A stretch of 61,163 bases of DNA, taken from NCBI GenBank assembly GCA_021325035.1, contig JAJPHW010000058.1:1-61163 (forward strand), in the 5' to 3' direction. Of this stretch, positions 23,283 through 25,896 are shown piece after piece (position 1 is the stretch's first letter; every line of letters begins with the position of its first letter). The notes beneath the pieces are model-generated. The model did no database searches. It saw only the letters and a list, made by a program, of their open reading frames with translations, and had not been told where the DNA came from. Source of the stretch: Terriglobia bacterium. Lineage in GTDB: Bacteria > Acidobacteriota > Terriglobia > Terriglobales > Acidobacteriaceae. The position numbers and the translations under genes are program-made.

Positions 23283-23291
23283 ATTTGGGGC
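23283..23291. repeat. Target-site duplication, left copy
   Basis: The 9-mer atttggggc directly abuts the left terminal inverted repeat and is repeated exactly at 25888-25896 beyond the right end. Nine bases is a usual duplication length for IS1-type insertion. Confidence 0.9.
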
Positions 23292-23310
23292 GGTAGTGGG
23301 CTACTTTGAA
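23292..23310 (+). repeat. Left terminal inverted repeat
   Basis: ggtagtgggctactttgaa, perfect inverse of 25869-25887. The stop codon of the small membrane protein gene (23301-23303, minus strand) lies inside it. Confidence 0.93.
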
Positions 23311-23621
23311 ACATTGGGCAGAATGCCGCCCAAGATAATAGTTCCGAAGATAAAGCACCAGACGCATATCAATTTTCCCAACCGATATTGCCACGCACGA
23401 ACTCTCTGGCGTTCAGGATCGCCACTTAAAGCCTCAAGACCAATGCAACAGGCAATAATGCTTGCACATAGAAACAACAATGCTGCCCGAACATACCAAG
23501 CACTCGCGTGATCGGTGATTCTGAGACCAATGACGAGCACTATAGAACCCGTTGAGAGCGTGGTGATGTGCTTGAGGACATCAATTTCTAATTTTGTGCG
23601 CTCTAAATTAAGGTCTGGCAT
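23301..23621 (-). CDS. Small three-helix membrane protein, transposon passenger
   Basis: Protein of 106 residues; I do not recognise the family. A short charged N-terminus (LERTKLEIDVLKHI) precedes three hydrophobic segments at about residues 23-37, 42-64 and 80-100. Its ATG (23621) follows the transposase stop with no gap (TAAATG), so it is co-transcribed and probably translated by reinitiation. Its stop codon is inside the left terminal repeat, so it belongs to the element. Small helical-bundle membrane proteins can be effectors or immunity proteins in other systems, but nothing here proves such a role. Confidence 0.72.
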   Translation of the reverse strand: MPDLNLERTKLEIDVLKHITTLSTGSIVLVIGLRITDHASAWYVRAALLFLCASIIACCIGLEALSGDPERQRVRAWQYRLGKLICVWCFIFGTIILGGILPNVSK

Positions 23622-24479
23622 TTACGCCGCTCTTTCCGCCCTCCGCTCATACTGCTCCCAGAGGGCTACCAAATCTTCAACGCTCCAAAGCCTATCGCTA
23701 ATGCCAGCGGCCATTGCCGGAGATATGCGAAGTGTACGATGAATCTTGATGAAATTGTAGGCGAAATAATTGAGAGCCGTGGCCGCTGCATGGTTCTCTA
23801 ACTTGCGCGAAAAGCCGTTTGAGAGGCGCGTATATCGCCGCATGTTCGTGCGAACCGTCCAGTTCTGGCGCTCTACAAACGAAGTTGAAACGTGCTTAGG
23901 GTCTGGCCTTCCATTCACTTCTTTCATCTCACAGCCGATGCACTTTGCTGGCGAATAGCGGGTCTCATTCTCATGTGGCGCACCGTAAATCTTGTGCAGT
24001 TGCGCGTAGTCGCACTCGCCCCCAAAAGCATCTTCGATCACATTCAAATAGGTTCGCAGCGCGTCGGTCGTAATCTGGACGCGGCCTTTAACCCGCTTTG
24101 CAATATCTTCAACAAAATCTTTCGCGGTCACCAGATCACGCTGCCCTAGCCGCCACGAAGGAACTAGCTTGGTATCCGCATCAACACACACCCACAGCCA
24201 TACGTCACCAGCATCAGGATGTTTACGAGCAATCTCTTCCGTGCGGTTCTTGTCTTTGCAATAAATCCACGCCCACATCTCATCAAGCTGCAATCGCTTT
24301 GACCGCAGGTTGCGAAATACGCGACTCTGAAAGTCAGCGCAGACTTCACCAACTTCCACGAGAAGGCGCATTACCGTTTTCTTTGAAACGCCCGTCATTC
24401 GCACCGTTGCGCGAATCGAGCATCCTTCAATCAAACAGTTGATAACCTGTGCGCGAGTCTGAGAGTCAAGCCTATTCAT
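23622..24479 (-). CDS. IS1-family-like DDE transposase
   Basis: Protein of 285 residues from ATG 24479 (MNRLDSQTRAQVINCLIEG). A frame extension upstream to 24560 would run through the promoter and is rejected. A helix-turn-helix lies at about 20-41 (SIRATVRMTGVSKKTVMRLL). The catalytic core shows D66 (RLQLDEMWAW), D139 (QITTDALRTY) and E203 (STSFVERQNWTVR), with the downstream ALNYFAYNFIKIHRTL stretch typical of IS1-type enzymes. It is a single uninterrupted frame, unlike IS1 itself, which needs a -1 frameshift. Expression from 24490-24518 would give a nearly leaderless transcript. Confidence 0.9.
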   Translation of the reverse strand: MNRLDSQTRAQVINCLIEGCSIRATVRMTGVSKKTVMRLLVEVGEVCADFQSRVFRNLRSKRLQLDEMWAWIYCKDKNRTEEIARKHPDAGDVWLWVCVDADTKLVPSWRLGQRDLVTAKDFVEDIAKRVKGRVQITTDALRTYLNVIEDAFGGECDYAQLHKIYGAPHENETRYSPAKCIGCEMKEVNGRPDPKHVSTSFVERQNWTVRTNMRRYTRLSNGFSRKLENHAAATALNYFAYNFIKIHRTLRISPAMAAGISDRLWSVEDLVALWEQYERRAERAA

Positions 24480-24489
24480 AATGTGCATT

Positions 24490-24518
24490 ATTATACTAAA
24501 GCGCTTTAGCATTGTCAA
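24490..24518 (-). promoter_or_regulatory. Perfect consensus sigma70 promoter of the transposase, with palindrome in the spacer
   Basis: On the minus strand TTGACA (24513-24518) and TATAAT (24490-24495) are exactly 17 bp apart. The spacer contains the 14-bp perfect palindrome CTAAAGCGCTTTAG (24496-24509), adjacent to the -10 box, where a bound repressor would exclude RNA polymerase. The expected transcription start is about 24483-24484, 4-5 nt before the ATG at 24479. Confidence 0.85.
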
Positions 24519-24633
24519 GATGAAACAAAATGAAACGAGAGCGATTGCCTTCCCTAGCACCTTGTGGAAAAAAGGATAGGAAGTCTATTGCGTTATGTTA
24601 CCTGAGTGTGATACTAAAGGGGTGGTAAGTAGC

Positions 24634-24808: not shown

Positions 24809-25588
24809 ATGAGCACGGAATCCCTTGATTACACAGCCATTCTCGCTGACCTAGAGGCGAAGAAAGCCGCCCTAGAGCAGACCATCGCATCTTTCCGGCA
24901 GGCAATGGCTGCCGGAGCACTCGGACAAATGAGTTCCGATGGCACAGTGATTCCCTCGCTCAATGGGCCTTCATTTACGGGCGGCGAAGTACCCGCTGGC
25001 GCATTTTTAGGGAAGAGCATCACTGAGTCCACGAGGCTCTATCTAGAGATCGTTAAGAAGAAACAGACCACCCGCGAAATTGCAGACGCTCTGCGAAAAG
25101 GTGGCATGGAAAGTACATCGAACGACTTTGTCGGCATCGTCAATGCTGGCCTAAATCGCGCCCACAAGTCTCCTAACTCTGGCATCGTTAAAGTCGGTAC
25201 GCAGTGGGGACTGGCTGGTTGGTATCCGAAAGGCATTACATCCGGCGCGGGACAGTCATCTAAAAAATCAAAAAACCGTAAACCCCAAAAAGCTGCAACT
25301 TCTCAAGCGAAAGCCAAAGAACAAGCTGCTGTTGCTGCCAAAGAATCTAAGCCAATGCCTAAGATCGTTACTTCACCAAATGTAAATTCGGCGCAGCGGG
25401 TGCTTGAGATATTGCAAGCGAATCGTGGACTAACCTTCACCGCACAGGAAATAGCAAAAACGCTCGGAATAAACTCGAATACAGCACCGCTGATATTGGC
25501 GAATCTTGTGCGAAGTCGGAAGGCTGAAAAAACGGTTGATGGGAAATATATAGCGGTTATTTCTCACCCGATGAACGCCGCTGTTTAG
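24809..25588 (+). CDS. Two-domain winged-helix DNA-binding protein, transposon passenger
   Basis: Protein of 259 residues from ATG 24809, selected because AAGGAG lies 8 nt upstream. Residues 5-32 are a probable coiled coil. Residues 70-140 (TTREIADALRKGGMESTSNDF then VKVGTQWGLAGWYP) resemble the HARE-HTH winged-helix domain. A lysine/alanine-rich linker (about 150-190) follows, then a second winged helix (194-250, LTFTAQEIAKTLGINSNTAPLILANLV). The domain assignment is by pattern, not by search. It is divergent from the transposase and is the obvious candidate to bind the promoter palindrome or the element's ends. Its 3' end overlaps the converging small gene by 32 bp. Confidence 0.78.
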   Translation: MSTESLDYTAILADLEAKKAALEQTIASFRQAMAAGALGQMSSDGTVIPSLNGPSFTGGEVPAGAFLGKSITESTRLYLEIVKKKQTTREIADALRKGGMESTSNDFVGIVNAGLNRAHKSPNSGIVKVGTQWGLAGWYPKGITSGAGQSSKKSKNRKPQKAATSQAKAKEQAAVAAKESKPMPKIVTSPNVNSAQRVLEILQANRGLTFTAQEIAKTLGINSNTAPLILANLVRSRKAEKTVDGKYIAVISHPMNAAV

Positions 25589-25832
25589 CAGGTTTTTTCT
25601 TGGTTTTGCCCCATCGAGATTGGGCGGCTTTCAATGCTATCTGGCTGCGTTGTTCGGGAGTCATTGTTTCAAGGCGCTTCTTGCCTCCGATCTTTCCGCC
25701 TTTTCTTCCCATCTCCGACATAATGCGGGAAATATCGCTTTTGGCAATTTCAGGCTCAGAGACGGAGCGTTGAACCATTTGGAAGGCGGCCTGATTGATG
25801 TCTGAGGGATTTTTGCTAATACGCTTTGGCAT
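25557..25832 (-). CDS. Small basic conserved-type protein, transposon passenger
   Basis: Protein of 91 residues rich in Lys and Arg. The segment MGRKGGKIGGKKRLETMTPEQRSQIALKAAQSRW follows a pattern common in small bacterial proteins of unknown function (GGKxR, then TPEQRxxIAxKAAxxRW). It could bind nucleic acid by charge. It lies between the winged-helix gene and the right terminal repeat, reading inward, and its 3' end overlaps that gene tail to tail. No strong ribosome-binding site is visible, so the start is less certain. Confidence 0.62.
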   Translation of the reverse strand: MPKRISKNPSDINQAAFQMVQRSVSEPEIAKSDISRIMSEMGRKGGKIGGKKRLETMTPEQRSQIALKAAQSRWGKTKKKPAKQRRSSGEK

Positions 25833-25868
25833 GGTTAAAGTATCCCATGCCTTTCTTATGTTTCAAAA

Positions 25869-25887
25869 TTCAAAGTAGCCCACTACC
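25869..25887 (-). repeat. Right terminal inverted repeat
   Basis: Exact 19-bp inverse complement of 23292-23310. Confidence 0.93.
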
Positions 25888-25896
25888 ATTTGGGGC
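25888..25896. repeat. Target-site duplication, right copy
   Basis: Second copy of atttggggc, directly outside the right terminal repeat; see 23283-23291. Confidence 0.9.

Follow-up and report, generated by a model that had tools for sequence, protein, structure and literature searches.

The transposase gene of an IS1-like transposon from a soil-dwelling Terriglobia bacterium is preceded by an exact consensus promoter with a palindrome in its spacer. The conservation and covariation of this palindrome suggest that the promoter is turned off by a small, previously unnamed protein, here called KGG, and not by the passenger protein that was first suspected. KGG most likely binds two sites, O1 in the transposase promoter and O2 at its own gene, and would repress both genes, giving a burst of expression from near-leaderless mRNAs and then a shut-off; we put the probability of this reading at roughly two in three. 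The window referred to below is the whole stretch of positions 1 to 61,163 of contig JAJPHW010000058.1 (assembly GCA_021325035.1). Computation supports the promoter, the palindrome with its conservation and covariation, the second site and the link to KGG.

The element and its genes

The element is intact, 2,596 bp long and present in a single copy in the genome. It is bounded by perfect 19-bp terminal inverted repeats (TIRs; 19/19 inverted match), GGTAGTGGGCTACTTTGAA at 23292-23310 on the plus strand and its partner at 25869-25887 on the minus strand. Direct reading and a TIR/TSD script place a 9-bp target-site duplication (TSD), ATTTGGGGC, at 23283-23291 on the left and 25888-25896 on the right. 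The 9-bp TSD and a TIR that begins GGTAGTG agree with the IS1 family, whose target duplications are 8-9 bp and whose TIRs start with GG. The TIR class GGTAGTGnnnCAnTTTGAA is common to about 40 related elements.

The DDE transposase (285 aa, 23622-24479, minus strand) starts at an ATG close to where the predicted mRNA begins. Its matches to IS1 profiles are below the cut-offs: NCBIfam transpos_IS1 gives 60.4 bits (E 2.2e-16) against a cut-off of 100, and Pfam DDE_Tnp_IS1 gives 20.7 against a threshold of 24.1, with rve/DDE also sub-threshold. Named relatives of the transposase carry the annotation IS1 family transposase. The canonical IS1 arrangement, an N-terminal zinc finger plus helix-turn-helix (HTH) with the InsA frameshift, was not found in the transposase; there is a single ORF from the ATG at 24479, and the promoter occupies the place where the zinc-finger part would be. 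Since IS1 groups with a single ORF are known, the element is called IS1-like. In the distant homologues L030, L075, L076, L077 and L082, a zinc-ribbon-like CxxC motif stands just upstream of the HTH, like canonical IS1; in the clade of the window, the promoter and operator take up that place.

A 106-aa ORF (23301-23621, minus strand) also lies within the element; it matches no family and is almost without homologues in related elements. The whole is best explained as an IS1-like transposon whose core consists of two genes, for the transposase and KGG, with optional cargo in addition. Of 396 genomes from the phylum, 57 contain relatives; 34 related loci are on acidobacterial MAG contigs, and further relatives are on alphaproteobacterial plasmids. 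Delimited elements of the family measure 1.8-4.8 kb, of which the transposase gene takes only about 0.85 kb, and most hold space for other, varied ORFs. Thus members of the family appear to act as small transposons and not as bare insertion sequences.

Promoter and palindrome of the transposase gene

The minus-strand sequence 24518-24490, TTGACAATGCTAAAGCGCTTTAGTATAAT, is an exact sigma-70 consensus, with the −35 at 24518-24513, the −10 at 24495-24490 and a spacer of 17 bp, and promoters of this kind are also found upstream of homologues. It is the sole TTGACA-N16..18-TATAAT in the window, no such pattern appeared in 100 dinucleotide shuffles of the window, and the exact consensus promoter has 2 matches in the whole 3.86-Mb assembly. 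The palindrome CTAAAGCGCTTTAG lies inside the spacer at 24496-24509 and is a single copy both in the window and in the 3.86-Mb genome. These searches bear out the first-pass annotation, which had read an exact TTGACA-17 bp-TATAAT promoter at 24490-24518 with a 14-bp palindrome in the spacer and had assigned it to the transposase. The promoter is directed towards the transposase ORF, and the start that fits is the ATG at 24479, 10 nt past the −10; the longest version of the ORF, from a GTG at 24560, starts upstream of the promoter. The putative operator O1, ATGCTAAAGCGCTTTAGTAT (24493-24512, minus strand), has the 14 bp of 24496-24509 as its perfect core, and its outer bases enter the −10.

Examination of the upstream DNA of 120 homologous transposase genes gave 100 distinct promoters. 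An exact TTGACA is present in 69 of these and a 17-bp spacing in 76, values in which hexamer quality is partly built in since hexamers were picked by best match; this does not apply to the distance to the ATG or to the palindrome. In 65/100, no more than 6 or 7 nt separate the −10 from the ATG (10 nt in the window), and the transposase mRNAs are predicted to be leaderless or nearly so.

The inverted symmetry of the promoter spacers is above that of shuffles (z = 12). A repeat anchored at the −10, with at least 5 of 7 pairs, is found in 32 of 92 promoters in the even (14-bp) form and in 17 of 92 in the odd (15-bp) form, compared with at most 4 and 2, respectively, in shifted registers of the same promoters; a 14/15-bp inverted repeat therefore abuts the −10 in about half. 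The core AGCG is mostly constant. The arms vary among elements (CTAAA, CTTGA, CATGA, CGTGA, CGCGA) with compensating changes opposite, which is the pattern expected of an operator whose reader has changed. Conservation in related elements had been proposed as the check on the palindrome as a likely repressor site; the check was run and the palindrome passed it, behaving as a probable operator kept across relatives. In L100, L119, L134, L135 and L150 there is a leader of 23-24 nt and the palindrome is still in the spacer; it is therefore part of the promoter and not of the start codon. It should be noted that a clear palindrome is absent from about half of the related promoters despite KGG (47/90), and from four alphaproteobacterial relatives. 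No operator-like sequence was seen in the TIRs, and TIR and operator vary independently.

A putative second operator at the start of KGG

The KGG gene (25557-25832, minus strand) encodes a small basic companion protein of 91 aa, the predicted repressor on the grounds of its occurrence in relatives and its covariation with the operator. Its promoter, TTGAAA-16-GATACT with a TG extension (25839-25866, minus strand), ends 6 nt before the KGG ATG, and the −35 sits just inside the TIR. Each element was scanned with its own operator, and the best second match falls at the KGG gene, on its start codon or in its promoter. In the window element this match is the putative operator O2, ATGCCAAAGCGTATTAGCAA (25813-25832, minus strand), which starts at the KGG start codon and is identical to O1 at 15 of 20 positions. 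In 35 of 39 training elements and 10 of 12 held-out ones the best second match is close to the KGG start, and when operators are swapped between elements the match falls from 0.73 to 0.59 (z = 9.2). The same operator is thus present at the transposase gene and at that of the predicted repressor, a trait of transposon-encoded autorepressors. In 55 of 80 cases the −10 of the KGG gene, often TG-extended, is separated from the ATG by 6 nt; the KGG mRNA is therefore predicted to be leaderless too, with O2 over the first codons. The second site is in the promoter rather than in the codons in L090, L039, L019 and the L119/L134 group.

The first-pass annotation had also pointed to a recurrence of the 9-mer ATACTAAAG at 24611-24619. 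The 9-mer is present there, at chance level by our estimate of about 0.4 matches per 2.6-kb element for 9-mers of the promoter region, and it has no support among relatives. It was rejected as a second site; the site that matters is at 25832-25813.

Other arrangements are seen in some relatives. The KGG of L119, L134, L135 and L150 is a short form of about 55-65 aa whose gene diverges from that of the transposase, and the KGG promoter spacer holds more half-sites (GACCGCTCACGTATA in L119 and L134), so several operators may lie between the two divergent genes. In L233, a near-perfect (20/21) second operator copy overlaps the transposase start codon.

Distribution and identity of KGG

Sixty-five related loci have at least 2.5 kb of upstream sequence, and 33 of them are palindromic. 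The KGG gene is found in 60 of the 65 and in 32 of the 33, and the palindrome is found in only 1 of 14 elements without KGG (Fisher P 0.0036). Related transposases without KGG (L217, L219, L225, L228, L208) have a leader of about 18-21 nt, and their spacers lack a clear palindrome; the three traits of KGG, palindrome and leaderless start thus seem to be missing together.

The KGG family has no match in Pfam, NCBIfam or PDB sequences, and there is a weak match to phrog_2384, a family of unknown function. The predicted structure has three helices and no wing, and the model did not match any PDB fold, including those of known DNA-binding proteins. Thus a MerR-like DNA-binding domain was not found in KGG, given the wingless model and the lack of a Pfam match. 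A KGG relative in a Mesorhizobium plasmid element (L171 2075-2284, CP050295.1) is annotated as 'histone H1', and the start MPKR is common. The chances are even that proteins with the motif GGxxGG..R...LTPExRxxIAxKAAxxRW are sequence-specific DNA-binding repressors of a new class that matches no known fold, that their operator overlies the opening codons of their own leaderless gene, and that their C-terminal residues form a specificity code in which RL goes with CTAAA arms and RA with other arms.

Covariation of operator and protein

Operator similarity regressed on identity of the KGG C-terminal half gave R2 0.364 (n = 38), or 0.353 in the pooled set (n = 49), compared with 0.09 for the HTH and 0.10 for the catalytic part of the transposase. 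In joint models with all elements, the KGG C-terminal half is the sole significant term, and in a non-redundant subset (n = 12) only the KGG term is kept (P about 0.01). Outside the CTAA class, R2 is 0.11 both for the transposase HTH and for KGG, and in the joint model the HTH is the significant term. CTAA-type operators pair with GGK(R/K)R(L/M) in KGG, and other operators with GGxARA. L133, L016 and L039 break with the transposase tree, and in these the operator and the KGG residue class switch together; 3.6-4.0 of 4 well-supported independent pairs agree and 0 oppose, a number of switches with which a sign test cannot reach 0.05.

The rules were fixed beforehand and applied to 56 new transposase loci. 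The pairing of a CTAA operator with KGG ..R(L/M) held in 10/10, versus 0/28 for the others, in a hold-out that is partly dependent, several of its CTAA elements being closely related to training elements. The LGA rule gave one match and one miss (L203). For L007, the KGG type was predicted before retrieval; the LGA form was found, essentially as predicted.

Alternative readers of the palindrome

The passenger (24809-25588, plus strand) had been named as the natural candidate for the repressor. Its gene adjoins the promoter, and the structure model (mean pLDDT 68) has two helix-helix-helix-hairpin regions, consistent with the winged-helix-like character ascribed to it; Pfam HTH_11 is sub-threshold. 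In L133, a distant transposase is accompanied by an identical operator core and also by a passenger homologue. However, homologues are present in only 10 of the 65 related loci and 6 of the 33 palindromic ones, 15 TIR-delimited palindromic elements have none, and L039 has one despite a different operator. The role as repressor is thus most improbable, and the gene is best seen as optional cargo. A host protein as reader is very improbable. Host factors do control some transposons, but in this genome only the element has the exact palindrome, and the arms differ among elements yet match the second site within each element.

Self-repression by the transposase, with its N-terminal HTH on the palindrome, is rather unlikely, although the transposase is encoded by the element and always present, and the N-terminal part of the IS1 transposase, InsA, represses in this way at the TIR (PMC12428005). 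The correlation of the operator with HTH identity, at least equal to that with KGG in the non-CTAA group, means that self-repression is possible there, but the HTH term is non-significant in the full joint model. The window and L090 have the same TIR and different operators, which argues against a TIR-binding transposase as the reader. The operator is absent when KGG is missing, though the transposase remains, and self-repression alone would leave O2 on the KGG start unexplained. Also improbable is a general role for KGG in DNA binding or as an accessory to transposition, as the histone H1 annotation could imply; the operator-like first codons would then merely follow from the conserved start MPKRSS. 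The start of KGG resembles its own element's operator more closely than those of others (the swap above), and in the elements with a second site in the promoter that site is outside the codons.

Proposed mechanism and known systems

In the preferred reading, repression by KGG, the promoter of maximal strength would fire in a naive cell without KGG, and transposase and KGG would be made. KGG would then occupy O1 and O2, the latter at its own start. The outer bases of O1 reach into the −10; a dimer on this site would therefore block RNA polymerase, and transposition would stop once KGG sits on the operators. Both mRNAs would begin at the AUG or a few nt from it. The transposase message would have no ribosome-binding site upstream, and therefore host read-through transcripts would be poorly translated. 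Binding, repression, the dimer, burst and shut-off, and this insulation are what we infer from the computed features.

Tn3-type TnpR is a resolvase that acts at res and controls the divergent tnpA and tnpR genes. A single element-encoded repressor of transposase and itself, as predicted here, is similar; KGG differs in being no recombinase by sequence and in being divergent from the transposase only in the L119/L134/L135/L150 group. The closest parallel appears to be CvkR, the MerR-type repressor of type V-K CRISPR-associated transposons, which has a solved structure, tested binding to a palindromic 15-nt site in promoters of transposition genes, and leaderless mRNAs (PMC9938897). A small transposon-encoded repressor and leaderless mRNAs, both predicted here, and a palindromic promoter site are shared. 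Unlike CvkR with its MerR fold, KGG is an unnamed protein known from sequence alone, it accompanies an IS1-like transposase, and a second site lies on its own start codon. InsA, with zinc finger and HTH, is made without the frameshift and represses a weak IS1 promoter that overlaps the TIR (PMC12428005). As in IS1, a DNA-binding repressor (predicted here) would limit transposase expression in an IS1-type element; unlike InsA, it is an unclassified protein from a separate gene, the promoter is internal, strong and of exact consensus, and no zinc finger or frameshift is seen. No report of an IS1-like element with such a repressor was found among open-access papers.

The findings give a testable function to an unnamed family of small proteins annotated as hypothetical or histone H1. 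Repression by KGG would explain why so nearly perfect a promoter is tolerable for a transposon, and leaderless mRNA may serve as a shield against read-through transcription. Across the family, the predicted repressors and their operators are matched in pairs, a natural series that could reveal a specificity code.
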